Shown: positions 6,529-18,442 of the stretch, piece by piece
Position numbering within the stretch: the first letter of the stretch is position 1
Layout of the letters: every line of letters starts with the position of its first letter
Assembly (NCBI GenBank): GCA_029258725.1
Contig: JAPDKE010000050.1
Span: forward strand, 1-37,585
DNA: 37,585 nt
Origin: a bacterium
GTDB lineage: Bacteria; Hydrothermota; UBA3072; JAPDKE01
Reading direction: 5' to 3'
The notes under the pieces: model-generated
What the model saw: only the letters and a program-made list of their open reading frames with translations
What the model was told of the DNA's origin: nothing
Databases searched by the model: none
Made by a program: the position numbers and the translations under genes

Positions 6529-7152
6529 TTACCCTTCCTTTCTTATAACATCCTTTATTCTCATAAGCCTGGTTATGTTTCCCCTCTCCATCTCCGAGAG
6601 TTTCATCTGGATGTACTTTACCGTATCTTCAAGATTTGGAATGAGTATGTATTCAAGGGCATTCACCCTTCTTCTCGTCTTTTCCATCTCATCCGCAAGC
6701 AGTTGCAGTGCCTTTTCATACTCGGCAAGTTCAACAAGCCTTTCAACCATTTTTTCAAGACGTTCAAGGGCAAGGTCAAGTTCGGGAGATGTCCAGTAAA
6801 AACTGTAAGTTACAAGTTCTCCCTCAAAGTGCTTTTCAAAAACCGGGATTCTCACATTCATCACCATCTTTTTCCTGAAATCTATGGTAAACGAACACGC
6901 GGGGAAAAGCAGAGCATCCTCAACCGCAAAGTCCTCCATTGAAGCCCTTGCAAAGAGAAAACGCTGGATTGCCTGGGTGAACTCCCTTTCCACCTCCCGC
7001 CTCAGAGTCCTCACCTTTTTCAAAAGCTCCTGTATAACCCTCATCAACTCATCCTGTTTCTCCTTCAGGAGTTTGTGCCCCCTCCTTGCAAGGGCAAGCC
7101 TCTTTTTAAGGTTCAGCAATTCCATCCGGGTGGCACTAACCGGAAGAACCAC
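6529..7152 (-). CDS. atpD: V/A-type ATP synthase subunit D (central stalk)
   Basis: 207 residues, largely two long antiparallel coiled-coil helices. The N-terminus [20 protein letters not shown] is the diagnostic signature of V/A-ATPase subunit D, and the C-terminus [19 protein letters not shown] is the matching conserved end. It forms the rotor shaft with subunit F inside the A3B3 ring. The start is GTG 7152 with AGGAGG 7 bases upstream. It overlaps the end of subunit B by 17 bases. Gene order A-B-D is the usual one for bacterial V-type operons. Confidence 0.95.
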
Positions 7153-8536
7153 CCTCTACCTCCTTCCTGAAGCGCTCGTAATACTTATCAAGATATTCCT
7201 CCCTTATTCTCTTCAACTCGGACCTGGGAAGCATGGTTAGAAGTTTCCATCCAAGGTCAAGGGTTTCCTCAACCGAGCGGTCCTCATACTCTCCCTGGGA
7301 GATATACTCCCTCTCAAAACGCTCGGCAAACTCAACATAGAGTTTGTCCATCTCTGAAAGTGCAGCCTCTCCAAGAATCATTGCAAGTTCCTGCGCCTCC
7401 TTACCCCTTGCATACGCCGCATATAACTGGTTGTAAAGGTCAGCATGGTCCTCCCTCGTCTTCCCCTTACCTATACCCTTGTCCTTGAGCCTTGAAAGGG
7501 AGGGAAGAACGTCTATGGGAGGTGATACCTTCTTCCTGTGGAGTTGCCTTGAAAAGATTATCTGCCCCTCGGTTATGTATCCAGTGAGGTCAGGAATGGG
7601 ATGGGTCTTGTCGTCCTCGGGCATGGTCAAAACCGGAAGAAGCGTTATGGAACCCTTCTTCCCCTTTATCCTTCCTGCACGCTCGTATATGCTTGCAAGG
7701 TCGGTGTAAAGGTATCCGGGATAGCCCCTTCTTCCAGGAACTTCTTTCCTTGCTGCTGATATCTCCCTCAACGCCTCACAGTAGTTGGTCATGTCCGTGA
7801 GAATAACGAGAACATGTATGTCCTTATCAAACGCAAGATACTCTGCTGCAGTCAATGCAGCACGCGGGGTTGCAATTCTCTCTATTGCAGGGTCATCTGC
7901 AAGATTCAAAAACATCACAACCCTTTCCAGTGCACCCGTTCTTGTGAAGTCCTGAATGAAGAACTCAGCCTCCTCATAGGTTATCCCCATCGCACCGAAG
8001 ACAACCGCAAACTTTTCCTCCTTCCCCAGGACCTTTGCCTGTCTTGCAACCTGTGCAGCAAGACGGTTGTGGGGAAGTCCTGAACCTGAGAAGAAGGGAA
8101 GTTTCTGCCCCCTCACCATCGGATTGAGACCATCTATTGCCGATATTCCGGTCTGGATGAACTCGTTGGGATATTCCCTTGCATAGGGATTTATGGGTGC
8201 ACCATTTATGTTCCTTTTAACCTCGGGTATTATCGGAGGTCCACCATCCTTCGGTCTTCCAAGACCATCAAATATCCTTCCCAGAATATCCATGGAGAGG
8301 GGAATCTCAATTCCCTTTGCGAGAAATCTCACCTTTGTCTGCCCCAGGTCTATCCCCTGGGTTCCCTCAAACACCTGGACAAGCGCCTTGTCAAAGTGGA
8401 CCTCAAGAACCTGTCCCCTTCTCACCTCACCCGATGGGAGTTCTATCTCAACCAGTTCCCCATACTTTGCTCCCTCAACCCCCTCAACCAGCATGAGGGG
8501 ACCGGATATATCTCCTATGCTCCTATACTCTTTCAT
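7136..8536 (-). CDS. atpB: V/A-type ATP synthase subunit B
   Basis: 466 residues, normal length. The regulatory, non-catalytic nucleotide-site subunit that alternates with subunit A in the hexamer. Seen: an N-terminal beta-barrel (residues 1-75), then [20 protein letters not shown] and [18 protein letters not shown], where the canonical P-loop Gly-Lys-Thr is replaced by SGSGLPHN as expected for B subunits. The conserved VVFGAMGIT and [14 protein letters not shown] follow. It starts with ATG 8536 inside the 3' end of subunit A (14-base overlap), implying coupled synthesis of A and B in equal amounts. Confidence 0.97.
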
Positions 8537-10295
8537 GAACTCCCTCCATTTTCTCCTTTAACTGAAGGTCAATCTCACGCTCTATCTCCTCTATTTCCTT
8601 CTCTATTCTGTCCTCGGGAACATACTTCATCCTTCCTATCCTCTCAAGCACCGGAAGCCCGTAGAGTTCCTTAACCGTAACTCCTCTCTCTATTGCACGC
8701 TTTGCGGTCTCATAAAATTTCAGAATCGTGCGGAGCATGAGATACTGCTTCTTTATGGATGTATAGGTATCAACCTCATGGAAGGCATTCTGGTGCAGGA
8801 AGTCCTCCCTTATCATCCTTGCAGCAAGCAGAATTAACTGGTCGCGCTGGGAGAGCGCATCCACTCCGACCAGCCTCACTATCTCCTCCAGTTCCGCCTC
8901 CTCCTCAAGCAGTTTCATTGCGTCGGATGACAGGTCCATGAAGTCAGGGGAAACGTTTTTCTTCACCCATTCCTTTATGTTCCCGGTATAGAGAGAATAG
9001 GAGGTGAGCCAGTTTATTGCAGGGAAGTGCCTTGCATAGGCAAGTCGTGCCTCAAGGCTCCAGAAGACCTTGACAACCCTTAAGGTTGCCTGAACAACCG
9101 GGTCTGAGAGGTCTCCACCGGGAGGGGAAACCGCCCCAACAACCGTGAGTGCCCCTTCCCTTTCAGGAGAACCCAGGCACTTCACCCTCCCTGCACGCTC
9201 ATAGAAGGACGCAACCCTTGCTGCGAGATATGCAGGATAACCTTCCTCTCCGGGCATCTCCTCAAGCCTTCCCGATATCTCCCTCATCGCCTCCGCCCAC
9301 CGGGAGGTTGAGTCAGCCATGAGTGCAACCGTATATCCCATGTCCCGGTAATATTCTGCAATGGTTATTCCGGTGTAAACAGAGGCTTCCCTTGCAGCAA
9401 CGGGCATGTTTGAGGTATTTGCTATGAGGACCGTCCTCTTCATCAGGGGCTGACCGCTCTTTGGGTCCTTCAGTTCCGGAAACTCTATGAGAACATCCGT
9501 CATCTCATTGCCTCTCTCACCGCAGCCTATGTAAACTATTATGTCCGCATCCGACCACTTTGCCAGCTGGTGCTGGGTCACGGTCTTTCCTGAACCGAAG
9601 GGACCTGGAATACACGCCGTTCCTCCCTTTGAGACCGGGAAGAACGTATCTATAACCCTCTGACCGGTGTACATCGGAATCTCAGGTGGAAGTTTTTCCC
9701 GGTAAGGTCTCGGTATTCTCACAGGCCAGCGCTGCATGAGTTTTATCCCTTTTTCCCCATCCTTTGTTCTCACAACCGCAACCGTGTCCTCAACCGTAAA
9801 TTCTCCCTCCTTTATATCAACCACTTCCCCCTCAATCCCCGGAGGAACCATTATCCTGTGTTCTATCAAAACTGTTTCCTGAACCTTACCTATTATATCC
9901 CCGGGCTTTACCTCATCTCCGGGCTTTTTAACCGGGACAAACCCCCACTTTTTCTCCCTTGAAAGTCCGGGAAGGTGGAGACCACGGGTTATGAAGTCCC
10001 CCGCCTTTTCCCTCAAAACATCAAGAGGTCTCTGGATTCCATCAAAAATGGATTCCATCAATCCGGGACCGAGTTCCACAGAAAGGGGTGAACCCGTGGG
10101 AAATACCGGGTCTCCAACTCCAAGCCCTCCTGTCTCCTCATAAACCTGTATGGATGCCCTGTCTCCCCTTAACTCTATCACCTCTCCCATGAGTCTTTCC
10201 TCACCCACGTAAACCACATCGTACATCCTCACCCCTTCCATACCCTCGGCAACTACAAGTGGTCCTGATACCCTTATTATTCTTCCTTCCTTCAT
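8523..10295 (-). CDS. atpA: V/A-type ATP synthase catalytic subunit A
   Basis: 590 residues. Domains: N-terminal beta-barrel (1-75), the A-specific non-homologous insertion (about 110-190), and the nucleotide-binding domain with Walker A GPFGSGKT (231-238). Downstream lie [11 protein letters not shown] (catalytic Glu in GERGNE), a [19 protein letters not shown] signature, and a helical C-terminal domain. It hydrolyses or makes ATP at the A/B interface in the cytoplasmic head. The A-subunit insertion separates it from F-type beta subunits. It starts ATG 10295, overlapping the stop of subunit F by 4 bases. Confidence 0.97.
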
Positions 10296-10606
10296 TCCTC
10301 TCCTCCCAGGGTTATTCCTGCTGCCTTTTTCATTATCTCCTTAAGGAGTTCAATCCCTATCCCCTTTGACCCGGTAACCCCTGGAAGGGGAACCAGGGCG
10401 GGATAGGGTCTTTCCCTGTATTCCTCTATCAAATCCTTTATTCTTGAATGCAGTTCCTCAGAGTAAAACACAATTCCATAATCCCTTGAGAGAACATCCC
10501 GCATGATGGAAGGAGCATCCTTCATCTCCTCAACAGGATAGACATCCGCCCCTATCGCCTTCATTGGATAGACCATGTCCTTTTCACCAACAAACGCTAT
10601 CTTCAT
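10292..10606 (-). CDS. atpF: V/A-type ATP synthase subunit F
   Basis: 104 residues with the small Rossmann-like pattern of subunit [21 protein letters not shown] at the N-terminus, [10 protein letters not shown] in the middle, [16 protein letters not shown] near the C-terminus. It binds subunit D on the central stalk and tunes ATP hydrolysis. It lies in the conserved order E-C-F-A-B-D and overlaps subunit C and subunit A by 4 bases each. Confidence 0.93.
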
Positions 10607-11601
10607 ACCGCTATCCTCTCCCTTATTACCTCCTGAGGAACCCTGTTTATCTTTCCTGAAAGGACTATCCTCAGGTTCTTTATCTCCTGCTCCTTTTTTC
10701 CCCAGTAACTGACAAGGACCTCGGGGCCCATGTAGTGATACCGGGTGATGGAAAGGTATCTTAAAAGAAACTCCTCCATGAGCCTTTCAAATCGCAGGAA
10801 AGAGTTCTCCCTTTTGAGATAGGAGTAGCCATCCTCAACAACCTCACGATAGGGGAAGCGTGAGATAAAATGCAGGAAAGAGTCCATTCCCGCATCACAC
10901 GCAGCCATGAATTCCTTTTCCGGGAGAAATCCTCCAGGCATGTAAACCCACCTCATCTTCTCCCTCTCATCCCTCACATCCAGCCTGAGGACAGTTCTTA
11001 TGTTCACCAGGTCGGCAACGCACCTCCAGTAGTTTCTCATGAACGGAAACTCAAGGGAGGTGAGATATTCAAACATGCAGCGGTCAACAGCATGGTCAAG
11101 CATGTCCATGCGGTATTTTTCATAGTAGGCAACCACCCCGCGCTCCACCGCAACCTGAAGATGAGAAGGAAGTTTGTCGTATCTTTCATCCTGGAATATC
11201 CTTTCCATCTCCGCAGGTGGTATGTTTCCGAAGGGGGTCAAAAGATGGGATAGATTCATTTCCTTTATCTTCGCCTTGAGCATTATCCTTAAATTGTGGT
11301 AGTCAAAAGGGGTCCTGAGATAGACAAGATATTCAGGGTCAACCATGAGACGCTCAAGCAACCCGTGCACCCTTTCCCTTTCTCTTACAAGCATCCTTTC
11401 GTATTCATGAGGGGATGAGAGTTCGGGAAGATAGGCAGAGTAATCGGAATCTGCAAGGGTGCGGAGTGCATCATCCGGGGTCTCTGCCTCTATAAGCCTC
11501 TCCCACCTTGACCGGTCCAGGAGCCTCTGCTCAAGGCTCCTTATAACCCCCATTGCGTATGCGTATCTTTCGTCTTCAATGAGTCTTTCAGGATATATCA
11601 T
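10603..11601 (-). CDS. atpC: V/A-type ATP synthase subunit C (d-like rotor cap)
   Basis: 332 residues, all-helical, normal length for subunit C (V-ATPase d homologue), the funnel that joins the D/F shaft to the K ring. Recognisable from YAYAMGVIRSLEQRLL, YLRTPFDYHNLRIMLKAK (a conserved family motif) and PEVLVSYWGKKEQEIKNLRI near the C-terminus. ATG 11601 lies within the end of subunit E (14-base overlap), and the stop overlaps the subunit F start. Confidence 0.93.
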   Translation of the reverse strand: MIYPERLIEDERYAYAMGVIRSLEQRLLDRSRWERLIEAETPDDALRTLADSDYSAYLPELSSPHEYERMLVRERERVHGLLERLMVDPEYLVYLRTPFDYHNLRIMLKAKIKEMNLSHLLTPFGNIPPAEMERIFQDERYDKLPSHLQVAVERGVVAYYEKYRMDMLDHAVDRCMFEYLTSLEFPFMRNYWRCVADLVNIRTVLRLDVRDEREKMRWVYMPGGFLPEKEFMAACDAGMDSFLHFISRFPYREVVEDGYSYLKRENSFLRFERLMEEFLLRYLSITRYHYMGPEVLVSYWGKKEQEIKNLRIVLSGKINRVPQEVIRERIAV

Positions 11602-12166
11602 GGAAAAGTATCTTCACCACCTCTGCTTCTGTCTTTTCTCTGAGTTCCCTCAGGATTGCGTCGGTGGAAAGGTTCACATCCACGCGCTCTCCCACAAGTA
11701 TGAGTCCTCCTTCTATCTTTTCCGTGTATTCCTCCGCCGGGAACTTTAATCCCTTCTCCCGGTTGAGTTCAACCCCAATTCCCTTGAGCCTCTTTTTATC
11801 ATCCAGGGCTATCATTATCTTTTCGGTTCCGGTTATGAAGTTCTTCATTATCAGGCTTTTGTAGAAACTCCTGTATTCCTTCTTCGGAAGTTTCTTCAAC
11901 TCCTCCACCACCCTCTTATAAACCCTGTCTATTATCTCGCGCTTCTTTGCAAGTATATCCTTCTTTATCTGCAGTCTCTCTGCACTCAGGATTCTCTCCC
12001 TTTCCGCCTCCGCAAGTTTCTTTATCCTTTCCTTCTCTGTGCGCTCAAGCCTTTTAAGTTCCTCCTTCCCGCGCCCTTTTATCTCCTCCGCGCGCTCCTT
12101 GGCCTTTTTCAGGATTTCCTCTCTCTTCTTTTTTGCCTCATCAAGAATTTTTTTACTTACCTTCAT
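11588..12166 (-). CDS. atpE: V/A-type ATP synthase subunit E (peripheral stalk)
   Basis: The frame is open from 12241, but the first residues there are read out of subunit K. ATG 12166, 2 bases beyond the K stop codon, is the sensible start (192 residues). Residues 1-85 are a charged coiled coil (KERAEEIKGRGKEELKRLER). The C-terminal half has the mixed alpha/beta head of subunit E, ending IEGGLILVGERVDVNLSTDAILRELR compressed into a typical GGxxLxxxxxxxxxNTLxxRL-like motif. It pairs with the G/H-like subunit as the stator that holds the A3B3 head. The Shine-Dalgarno is weak (GTAAAGAG), so translation probably depends on coupling to subunit K. Confidence 0.9.
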   Translation of the reverse strand: MKVSKKILDEAKKKREEILKKAKERAEEIKGRGKEELKRLERTEKERIKKLAEAERERILSAERLQIKKDILAKKREIIDRVYKRVVEELKKLPKKEYRSFYKSLIMKNFITGTEKIMIALDDKKRLKGIGVELNREKGLKFPAEEYTEKIEGGLILVGERVDVNLSTDAILRELREKTEAEVVKILFHDIS

Positions 12167-12170
12167 CTCT

Positions 12171-14582
<2,412 letters not shown>

Positions 14583-14592
<10 letters not shown>

Positions 14593-14903
14593 ATCTCCTT
14601 CAGTTTTTTCATCACAAACTCAACCGCCTCCTCAACCCTATCCCTTGTCTTTCTCTCTATCTCCTTCTTTTTCTTTTCCGCCTCCTCTCTCATCCTTTCC
14701 CTCTCCTCCTCTGCCTCCCTTCTTGCACGCTCCATTTCCTTCTCCTCAAGTGCCTTCATCTTTTCCATGAGTTTTTCCTTCTCCTTTTCAACCCCCTCCT
14801 CCGCCTCCTCAATTATCTTCCCTGCCTCAACCTCTGCCTGCTCAATTATTTTCTTCGCCTTCTCCTCTGCCTCTTTTATCTTTTTTATGAGTTCAACCTC
14901 CAT
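14583..14903 (-). CDS. V/A-type ATP synthase subunit G/H-like (peripheral stalk coiled coil)
   Basis: A 106-residue, almost entirely charged coiled coil (IKEAEEKAKKIIEQAEVEAG, then EEERERMREEAEKKKKEIER) ending in a small amphipathic helix FVMKKLKEIWE. This is the look of the AhaH/NtpF stator subunit, which dimerises with subunit E. Start ATG 14903 follows AAAGGAGG by 7 bases; an in-frame ATG at 14921 lies inside that ribosome site and is rejected. It overlaps the 3' end of glgA by 11 bases and precedes subunit I, the usual place for this subunit. Confidence 0.85.
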
Positions 14904-16242
14904 TCCATACCTCCTTTGCATCCCGGTAAAGTTTCAGGTATTCCTCTGCTGACTTTTTCCATGAAAAATCAGAGAGCATGCAGTTTTTTCTCATCTCGTA
15001 GAATTTTTCCTTCCTGTATATCTCAACGGCATTTTTTACACAGGATAGAAGTGCCTCGGGGGTGTATTCCTCAAAGAGAAATCCCCTTTCAGGGGTTATC
15101 GTATCTGCAAGCCCTCCTGTCTTTCTTCCTACGGGTATGGTGCCGTATCTCATTGCTATGAGCTGTCCGAGACCACAGGGTTCAAATCTTGAGGGCATGA
15201 GGAAGTAGTCGCATCCAGCGTATATTCTTCTTGAAAACCGGGCATCAAATGCGATTTTTACATAAAGTCTTCCCTTAAATCTTTGCTCAAGTCTCTTGAG
15301 TTCCTTTTCGTATTTTTCCTCTCCTGTTCCCAGGACTATGAGGTTTATTCCCATGTTTACAAGCCTTGAAATTGCGGGAATAAGGATATCAAGACCCTTC
15401 TGCTCAACGAGCCTTGAGATGAAACCAAAGAGGGGTCCTTCGTGTAAAATTCCTGTCTCCTCCATGAGTTTTTTCCTGCATTCCTCCTTTCCCTCTGGCT
15501 TTTCAACCGAATAGTTTGCAGGAATGTGCTCATCCTTTTCAGGATTCCATACCTCGTAGTCTATTCCGTTGAGTATTCCTCTGAGGTCCTTCCCCCTCTT
15601 CTTGAGTTCCTCATGCAGTCCTGCCCCGAATTCAGGGGTTGTTATTTCCCTTGCATAGGTTGGACTTACGGTATTGAGGAGGGTGGATGCAAGGATGCCG
15701 GTGCGCATGAGGTTTATATTTCCATCAACCAGATAGGAGGAGTAGTTTTCTTCCGGTATTCCCGTTTTTTTCATGTCCTCCTTGGGAAAGATTCCCTGGT
15801 ATGCAAGGTTGTGGATGGTGAAGACAGATGGGGTGTCTTTAACATAGAGGGGAAGGAATGCGGTGTGCCAGTCGTGGAAGTGGTAAACATCGCATCCACC
15901 GAGTTTTTTCACGTAATTGCAGGCTGCCCTGACAAAGAAGGAAAATCTTAAAAGTTCATCTCCTCCGTAAACTTCCTTTCTCGGGAACAGTTCTCCATCG
16001 TCAAGGAAGTAATGTTTTACTCCATTCTCTTTCCTCATGCGGATTTTCACCTTTTTCATGTCTCCCAGGAGGGGGACTTCTATCTCGTCCACCTGGGGTG
16101 CCTCAACTGTATAAACGGGAAGGAAGACCCATACCTCCTCCCCCATGGAGGCGAGTGATTTAGAAAGGGAGCTTACAACATCTGCAAGCCCCCCGACCTT
16201 TGCATAAGGGTATAATTCAACTGCAAGAAATGCTATTCTCAT
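14893..16242 (-). CDS. glgA: Glycogen synthase (ADP-glucose type, GT5)
   Basis: A 449-residue GT5 glycosyltransferase that extends alpha-1,4-glucan from ADP-glucose. The N-terminus MRIAFLAVELYPYAKVGGLA contains the KVGGL nucleotide-sugar motif (Lys15). VYHFHDWHTAF and FTIHNLAYQGIFP are typical GlgA blocks. The C-terminal Rossmann domain carries FISRLVEQKGLD and SRFEPCGLGQLIAMRYGTIP with the catalytic Glu. It is slightly shorter than the usual 470-490 residues. The frame is open upstream to 16419, but the conserved start and the promoter place translation at ATG 16242. No Shine-Dalgarno precedes it. It leads the ATPase gene cluster, an unusual partner. Confidence 0.94.
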   Translation of the reverse strand: MRIAFLAVELYPYAKVGGLADVVSSLSKSLASMGEEVWVFLPVYTVEAPQVDEIEVPLLGDMKKVKIRMRKENGVKHYFLDDGELFPRKEVYGGDELLRFSFFVRAACNYVKKLGGCDVYHFHDWHTAFLPLYVKDTPSVFTIHNLAYQGIFPKEDMKKTGIPEENYSSYLVDGNINLMRTGILASTLLNTVSPTYAREITTPEFGAGLHEELKKRGKDLRGILNGIDYEVWNPEKDEHIPANYSVEKPEGKEECRKKLMEETGILHEGPLFGFISRLVEQKGLDILIPAISRLVNMGINLIVLGTGEEKYEKELKRLEQRFKGRLYVKIAFDARFSRRIYAGCDYFLMPSRFEPCGLGQLIAMRYGTIPVGRKTGGLADTITPERGFLFEEYTPEALLSCVKNAVEIYRKEKFYEMRKNCMLSDFSWKKSAEEYLKLYRDAKEVWNGG

Positions 16243-16281: not shown

Positions 16282-16288
16282 GGTTGAA

Positions 16289-16883
16289 TTATTTTCCCAG
16301 ATACCAGTAAAAGCACACAGCGGCGAGGGGACCGGTGAAAGCAGGTCTTCCCCAGCAGAGATACTCCTTGCGATATACCCAGCCAATGATAAATGAACCT
16401 CCCCGGTTTCCAGATTCATCGTGGAATTTTATCGTTGCCTGGCAGGTAAAATCTCTACCTGTATATTGTCCTGCAGAGAGGAAATCCTCGTAGGTATAGC
16501 GTGAATAAATGCTTCCGAGATTTAAAGAAATCTTATCCCCTATCTGGAGATTTCCCTTTATTCCATAACCATATCCCAGTAAAGCATGGTAAAAAACCGG
16601 TCCGGATGTAAGGGTTATATAAGGATACTCCCACAGTTCCTTTCTTACATCAAAGGAAACATAGGGAATACCGAGTGAAATCCCTGCCTCCCATCCATTA
16701 CCAAGCCCCCTTCTTGCAAAAATGATGGAATTTTCAAAATATGGTGTTCCCTCACCTTCTCCTCCCATGCTTCCTCCCACCCCAATTCCCACAATTTTCT
16801 CTCCCGGCTCCAGCACCCTGGCAGCGCAAAAAGGCAGCACACATCCCTGAAAAAAAAAGAAAGAGAAAAGAAAACTTTTTCAC
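16289..16883 (-). CDS. Secreted beta-barrel-like protein, frameshifted at a homopolymer
   Basis: A GTG at 16883 with AAGGAGGGTGATT upstream begins a signal peptide (VKKFSFLFLFF). The mature part (RVLEPGEKIVGIGVGGSMGG onward to 16289; strands such as WEAGISLGIPYVSF, LLGYGYGIKGNLQIG, GGSFIIGWVY) lies in another frame. The two are separated by nine A on the plus strand (16850-16858). With eight bases the frames join as a normal signal peptide ending near PFCAA; with nine, translation from 16883 stops at 16752 after 43 codons. Without the shift the mature frame would need the GTG at 16840 and would lack a signal. Family unknown; an outer-membrane or surface protein is likely from composition. It is last in the radical SAM-pur-GGDEF unit. 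Confidence 0.6.
16850..16858. repeat. Mononucleotide tract (A9 on plus, T9 in the mRNA sense)
   Basis: Nine identical bases inside the signal-peptide coding region of the 16289-16883 gene. They sit exactly between two frames that would join if one base were lost. Tracts this long are prone to replication and RNA-polymerase slippage. Confidence 0.85.
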
Positions 16884-16915
16884 AATCACCCTCCTTAACA
16901 TATACCTTCTCATTT

Positions 16916-18442
16916 TCAATACCTCACCCTGTTTCTTCCCTCTTCCTTTGCACGGTAGAGGGCGGTGTCTGCCTTCTTTATAACCTCCTCCCTTCCCATA
17001 CCAGCCCCGGGGAAATGGGAAACACCAAGACTCACAGTAACCTTTATCCTTCCACCACCCCACTCAAATGGATGCTCCTCTACCCTCGCCCTTATAACCT
17101 CAGCAACCCTGACAGCATCCTTGAGGGAGGCACCTGCAAGAACACAGGCTATCTCCTCCCCTCCATACCTGGCAACAACATCAGTTTTCCTCACACAGCC
17201 TTTAATCACCTTTGATATCTCCTTCAAGACCTCGTCCCCTGCCTGATGCCCGTAGGTGTCGTTTATACGCTTGAAATGGTCTATGTCTATCATTATGAGA
17301 GAAAACTCCTCACCCTTTCTAACGAGTTTCTCAAGATACTCCTGAAAATACCTGTGATTGAAGAGACCCGTCAACCCATCCCTTATTGCCCTTTCCTTCT
17401 CCTTCTCATAAAGAAAAGACTTCTCAATCGCAGTTCCCGCAATCTCGGAAAGAAAGGAAAGAATAGTGAGGTCCTTCTCACCAAACTCCCTCCTTGATAA
17501 TACTATAATTCCACCATTTTTTACAGGAAAAGGTGCAAAAAGCAGGGATACACCGGATGCCACAATCCCCGGGAAAATCTCACTCTCCCTTTTGACATTG
17601 TTATCCCTTACAGGTATCCCGTGCTCAAGGGCAATGGTCGCAAAACATGGACTCTCCTCCACCCTCATCTGCTCATCCCCAAATACCTCAATGAATCCGT
17701 TTCTTAAAATGAATATAAACACCGAACTTCCCGGGAATAATTCATGTGCAGTTAATTCAAGTTTCTCAATCACATCGGGAAACTCAATCTCACCCCCAAC
17801 CTCCTTTGCAAGCTCCTGGAGCAACCTGAATTGAAATGCCTCTATCATGTATGCGTCTATGTGCCGGTACAGGGATATAAGAGTTGCAAGGAACCCCGAA
17901 AATGCCTCAAGTTTTTCCTTCTCCCTCTGGGAAAAGTAAAACGCCTCAGGAGAATCCACAACAAGAATACCTGCAAGTTCATCACCTATGAGCACCGGAA
18001 CCGCACACAGGGACCTCACCTTCCCTTTTTCCTCGTAATACCCCAGGGAAAAAACATCCTCATAGAACTCATCCACGACAAGGGTTTTCCTCTCCTTCCT
18101 CACCCAGTCAAGAGGTCCACCGGGAGAGAGAACTTCTTTGAGCTTCACCTGACTCACACTTCCCCTTAATCTGAAACCGTCTTTTTCTTTAAGATAAAAC
18201 GCGGCTGTCCCCGGCTTCAAAACACCATGAACTATCTCAACAACCTCCTGGACTGTTTTGAGAAAGTGCCTCGCAAAGAAAAAAGAACCCTTTATCTTCC
18301 TCACATCCGCAACCCCGTAAAGGGCGGAGATTGGGAGGGAAAGATAGGAGGAAAACTCCCGCTCTATTTTCTTCCTTTTCCTCCTCTCAAAAACATAAAG
18401 CGCAAGCGCACCAAGAGTGAGCACTATGAGAAAATACATCAT
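16916..18442 (-). CDS. Diguanylate cyclase with GAF-like sensor domains (GGDEF)
   Basis: 508 residues. One N-terminal membrane helix (residues 3-18), then two GAF-like regions (about 50-195 and 205-340), then a GGDEF domain (350-508). The active-site loop is RYGGEEI (425-431), a functional GGEEF variant. The inhibitory site RxxD is present (RKTD, 418-421), five residues before GGEE. The core also shows IRDGLTGLFNHRYF and MIDIDHFKRINDTYGH. It should make cyclic di-GMP from two GTP, controlled by an unknown GAF ligand and by product inhibition. It starts ATG ATG at 18442, overlapping the purQ stop by 4 bases. The coupling to purine (GTP precursor) genes is notable. Confidence 0.93.
   Translation of the reverse strand: MMYFLIVLTLGALALYVFERRKRKKIEREFSSYLSLPISALYGVADVRKIKGSFFFARHFLKTVQEVVEIVHGVLKPGTAAFYLKEKDGFRLRGSVSQVKLKEVLSPGGPLDWVRKERKTLVVDEFYEDVFSLGYYEEKGKVRSLCAVPVLIGDELAGILVVDSPEAFYFSQREKEKLEAFSGFLATLISLYRHIDAYMIEAFQFRLLQELAKEVGGEIEFPDVIEKLELTAHELFPGSSVFIFILRNGFIEVFGDEQMRVEESPCFATIALEHGIPVRDNNVKRESEIFPGIVASGVSLLFAPFPVKNGGIIVLSRREFGEKDLTILSFLSEIAGTAIEKSFLYEKEKERAIRDGLTGLFNHRYFQEYLEKLVRKGEEFSLIMIDIDHFKRINDTYGHQAGDEVLKEISKVIKGCVRKTDVVARYGGEEIACVLAGASLKDAVRVAEVIRARVEEHPFEWGGGRIKVTVSLGVSHFPGAGMGREEVIKKADTALYRAKEEGRNRVRY

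Follow-up and report, generated by a model that had tools for sequence, protein, structure and literature searches.

Among described phase-variable genes, opa of Neisseria carries its CTCTT repeats in the leader (PMC3960869). At the level of transcription, Escherichia coli RNA polymerase slips at T runs of at least seven, deletion slippage at T8 giving about 10% of the in-frame reporter (PMC6260861), and transcriptional slippage in dnaX of Thermus thermophilus takes place on a run of nine A's (PMC1088944); transcriptome-wide, insertions dominate at homopolymers and deletions are seldom linked to them (PMC5574713). In GeneTack practice, a singleton frame transition is put down to an indel mutation or a sequencing error, and clusters of transitions are candidate cases of phase variation or recoding (PMC3711429). 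A literature search on simple-repeat phase variation in metagenome assemblies gave no hits. We analysed a window of 37,585 nucleotides in which a gene on the minus strand changes frame at a run of nine T's (the T9 tract). The features of the locus are as follows.

16889..16896, minus strand: ribosome-binding site AAGGAGGG, 5 bases upstream of the GTG, read from the sequence
16752..16883, minus strand: leader frame as written, 43 codons, from the GTG start at 16883 through the signal peptide VKKFSFLFLFF to a TGA at 16754-16752
16850..16858, minus strand: T9 tract, located within the signal peptide's hydrophobic core and marking the frame break, read from the sequence
16841..16849, minus strand: Gln-Gly-Cys, a lipobox-like putative lipidation site directly after the T9 tract, from alignments and leader lists
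16289..16849, minus strand: predicted lipoprotein body (QGCVLPF...ARVLEPGE...YLGK, then TAA), 187 codons, constrained and out of frame with the leader
16916..18442, minus strand: upstream neighbour, a GAF-GGDEF diguanylate cyclase whose stop lies 32 bases ahead of the leader start
14893..16242, minus strand: downstream neighbour, glycogen synthase GlgA

The first-pass annotation had described a GTG at 16883 that opens a signal peptide behind a good ribosome-binding site, a stop after 43 codons and a secreted body separated from the leader by the nine-base run, and all of this was confirmed. The leader frame translates as VKKFSFLFLFFSGMCAAF... up to the TGA, and the Gln-Gly-Cys that follows the tract continues in the body frame as VLPFCAARVLEPGEKIVGIG. 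No stop interrupts the body frame between 16879 and the TAA at 16291-16289, and it has no start codon upstream of the tract; its first is a GTG at 16840, which lies beyond the tract and also beyond the lipobox Cys. According to a hexamer coding model trained on the same genome, the frame switches at the tract, with a score of +5.7 for the leader and, over the same 31 codons downstream, scores of +6.3 for the body frame and -18.6 for the leader frame. The two parts belong to a single gene that is split at the T9 tract, and a net deletion of one base would be needed to bring them into a common frame. Translation starting inside the body, at GTG 16840 or later, was dismissed as a route to a functional product, since the signal peptide would then be missing. 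The tract was also considered as an intrinsic terminator and discarded, since no stem lies upstream of it. The split gene stands alone amid housekeeping genes. Elsewhere in this bacterial window, positions 7136-14592 hold genes of a V/A-type rather than F-type ATPase, and an S10-type ribosomal operon is close by.

The same genome contains three further members of the family, on contigs C8, C29 and C3, all of them intact. The C8 paralog is the closest (63% identical), with the leader MKKLPFLFLFLQGC followed by LLPFYPASVLEPGE; the leaders on C29 and C3 are MKTFLPLVLFPFLYGC and MRKSVFFFLIFSGC, followed by PLPFHSGRMLSPGE and VFTFHSGRMLEEGE, respectively. The leader DNA of the C8 copy is nearly identical to that of the window copy and has TTTTCCTT at the position of the T9 tract, eight bases that include two C's and keep the frame. 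A profile search across 147 genomes of the phylum retrieved family members in 14. Almost every member begins with a hydrophobic leader, followed by a Cys and a brief conserved segment, and more than 20 of these relatives are single reading frames, intact at the leader. The common layout of these short proteins is a signal peptide, x-G-C and then LPF..(A/G)RVLEPGE, the Gln-Gly-Cys site being kept as x-G/N-C across the family in alignments and leader lists. A basic start, a hydrophobic core and a lipobox Cys are present, split by the tract in the window copy and whole in the paralogs, and the -3 residue is Phe or Leu, the canonical Leu not always being found. The position of the Cys suggests that the family members are lipoproteins, a more precise statement of the earlier and correct description of the body as secreted. 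Searches of Pfam, NCBIfam and PDB chains returned no match, and the family is undescribed in these resources. A single-sequence AlphaFold model, computed with no alignment, predicted strands but with a mean pLDDT of 34, too poor for a structure search. Neither this model nor the database searches confirmed the beta-barrel-like character proposed in the first-pass annotation.

No leader T run longer than eight was found in any homolog, the longest being an in-frame T8 in one relative from another genome. Among the sequences compared, which come from the same genome and from other genomes of the phylum, the T9 tract is private to the window copy; a search for further genomes from the species, its genus or its family found none. 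Two other arrangements were observed among the relatives. In genome G026, the family is tandemly expanded within 9 kb of contig C31 (L018, L032, L037, L040), where the copies share almost the same leader and first residues (MRRIIGFFGLVLIFTNCVTLFHSARVLEP) and the bodies have diverged, a pattern that suggests leader shuffling or gene conversion. In genome G010, a relative on contig C94 (L002 1426-1803) stops at 125 aa, with the remainder in another frame and no homopolymer at that point.

In order to assess the constraint on the body, we compared the window copy with its C8 paralog and with outgroups. The dN/dS of the body between the two copies was 0.36 (0.25/0.70), and no second stop or frame break was found in the 187 codons. 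Relative-rate votes against distant outgroups gave 23 departures for the window copy and 31 for the C8 copy, a rough test given an alignment that is weak past the first 60 residues except for the C8 pair; by this rough measure, the window lineage does not appear to have accelerated after the loss. The relaxed constraint and further lesions that mark a pseudogene were not seen in the body, and a very young pseudogene is possible. Taken together, the lack of a second lesion, the dN/dS and the absence of excess departures argue that the window copy was selected until nearly now; the readings compatible with this are a slip of very recent date, an error in the sequence, a reversible switch and a leaky allele. 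The alternatives that had been named from the outset beside a switch, namely decay, assembly error and polymerase slippage, were the right ones to weigh.

A selected phase variation, in which slipped-strand mispairing would alter the tract length and toggle the lipoprotein on and off, accounts for the constraint on the body and for several other traits of the locus: a slippage-prone tract (T9, 16858-16850) lies at the frame change, like the Opa repeats (PMC3960869) it falls within a surface-type protein's signal peptide, and an intact relative of the same kind exists elsewhere in the genome. We nevertheless consider it very unlikely. The tract is absent from all relatives, so that a tract conserved with varying phase was not found: no homolog leader has a run above eight and that of the C8 copy is interrupted. 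The first-pass annotation had itself proposed to compare the tract in related genomes and had named an intact frame without any homopolymer as the outcome that would speak against a switch; this is what the C8, C29 and C3 paralogs and the more than 20 copies in the phylum show, and its phase switch is left unsupported. The isolation of the gene among housekeeping genes also argues against a switch, as does the census of repeats in the genome. A search of the whole 2.11 Mb found four A/T runs of nine, the T9 tract among them, and none of ten or more; the other three, at C1:144242, C7:62360 and C11:67719, are in frame within intact genes (GTPase-like, ABC transporter ATPase and TPR-like, named by eye from translations). 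When codons were shuffled in a 422 kb sample, 19 T8 runs were expected in genes and 6 observed, and for T runs of at least nine 11 were expected and none observed. The sample consists of 20 stretches, three of which were picked for holding A9 runs and bias it toward long runs, so the depletion of T runs is, if anything, understated. A/T runs of at least eight were strongly depleted in the sampled genes, at a G+C content of 42.5%. Other contingency tracts were likewise not found: no tandem repeats with units of 2-8 were detected in the sample at the thresholds used, and the four G runs of eight in the genome are in frame or intergenic, with no visible break. The genome also has MutS and MutL genes with unbroken reading frames, a further point against phase variation. 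As far as is visible, the genome avoids slippage sites rather than using them.

The location of the tract within a leader had been presented as the classic design of a switch, but it proved not to be special. Among 40 genic T runs of at least seven, some possibly in mis-predicted genes and three counted from one gene, 15 fell within the first 35 codons versus 10.5% expected, an approximately 3.6-fold enrichment (p = 6e-6). T runs cluster near gene starts because signal peptides are rich in Phe and Leu, and the position of the tract within the leader speaks only weakly for design. In a lineage that otherwise purges long A/T runs, one paralog could have gained a T9 slip site in its leader and become a new contingency locus, switched by replication slippage and kept at a low basal level by RNA-polymerase slippage; this seems to us highly improbable. 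Further frame breaks in the sample were sought with a hexamer scan, which picked up antisense shadow frames and was too noisy to serve for any estimate of rates. On contig C8, a gene resembling an LVIVD-repeat lipoprotein (6786-7723, minus strand) is split into two ORFs near 7330-7290; this break is a one-base loss outside homopolymers, and the intact C8 paralog lies about 1 kb away.

The constraint on the body would also be explained if slippage of RNA polymerase, or a +1 slippage of the ribosome, at the T9 tract produced some full-length lipoprotein and kept the gene functional, a process that may add to a recent slip or a sequence error. Precedents exist on the T runs slipped by the E. coli enzyme (PMC6260861) and on the A9 of Thermus dnaX (PMC1088944). 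Since the former loses bases at T8, some leaky full-length protein from the T9 allele is plausible by analogy. A functional rescue of this kind appears unlikely, however: a net loss of one base is needed and deletions are rarely tied to homopolymers transcriptome-wide (PMC5574713), the tract lacks the conservation typical of programmed recoding sites, the RNA structure downstream is nothing special (z = +0.5) and the other A9 runs lie in genes that need accurate reading. A conserved slippery site with its frame arrangement, as in programmed recoding, was not seen among the homologs, which are single intact frames. Programmed ribosomal frameshifting was dropped as a leading idea, a +1 step being needed at an unconserved site with no stimulator structure.

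We therefore regard it as likely that the frame is broken in this copy alone, at a homopolymer that arose by accident, through either a recent slip or a sequence error, with no selected switch. A frame break found in a single copy, with its homologs intact, is read as an indel or an error following GeneTack practice (PMC3711429). C-to-T changes in a signal peptide rich in Phe and Leu would have created an uninterrupted T run, which, one base out of register, would break the frame in the assembly. The break would be either a replication slip, whether a nascent null allele or a polymorphism carried by a minority or the majority of the sampled population, or an error in the sequence. If a slip occurred, it was probably recent; the T9 allele would give no protein, or at most a small leaky amount of the full-length form, and the C8 paralog may cover the function of the broken copy. 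Two observations go against a slip or an error: the T9 tract is among the longest homopolymers of the genome and is positioned like classic contingency tracts, and an undecayed body is equally expected of a reversible switch or of a gene rescued by slippage. Within this preferred reading, a sequencing or assembly error in the homopolymer, the true gene being intact, carries real weight while falling short of an even chance. It agrees with a constrained body in a lineage that has not accelerated and with the draft state of the assembly (53 contigs), in which the one-base break of the LVIVD-repeat gene shows that such faults, real or technical, exist elsewhere. Against it, the other three A/T runs of nine are in frame and the four G8 runs are without visible break, which argues that homopolymers are not generally misread here.

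These results indicate that a convincing-looking 'phase switch' can come about by chance. The Phe and Leu codons of signal peptides gather T runs, and a one-base slip or error then mimics the anatomy of a contingency locus; paralogs, a genome-wide census of runs and the constraint on the body are the checks that separate chance from a switch. Should its length prove variable, the tract would be the sole candidate for a slippage switch observed in this genome.

Compared with the Opa genes of Neisseria (PMC3960869), the window copy is alike in having a slippage-prone signal peptide and an off frame that stops soon after. The Opa repeats are, however, long and common to all copies of the family, whereas the run is found here in one copy only, in a genome that otherwise avoids such runs. 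As in the transcriptional slippage genes dnaX of Thermus thermophilus (PMC1088944) and tssM of Citrobacter rodentium (PMC4256274), its frame changes at a stretch of about nine A/T bases; it differs from both in that the run is unconserved and that a base must be lost, not gained. The singletons classed by GeneTack as 'pseudogene' or 'H-pseudo / error' (PMC3711429) resemble it in that one member is out of frame at one site, the homologs are intact and the frameshift site is not conserved. Unlike them, the body in the window is without further decay, which argues that the break is very recent or technical.
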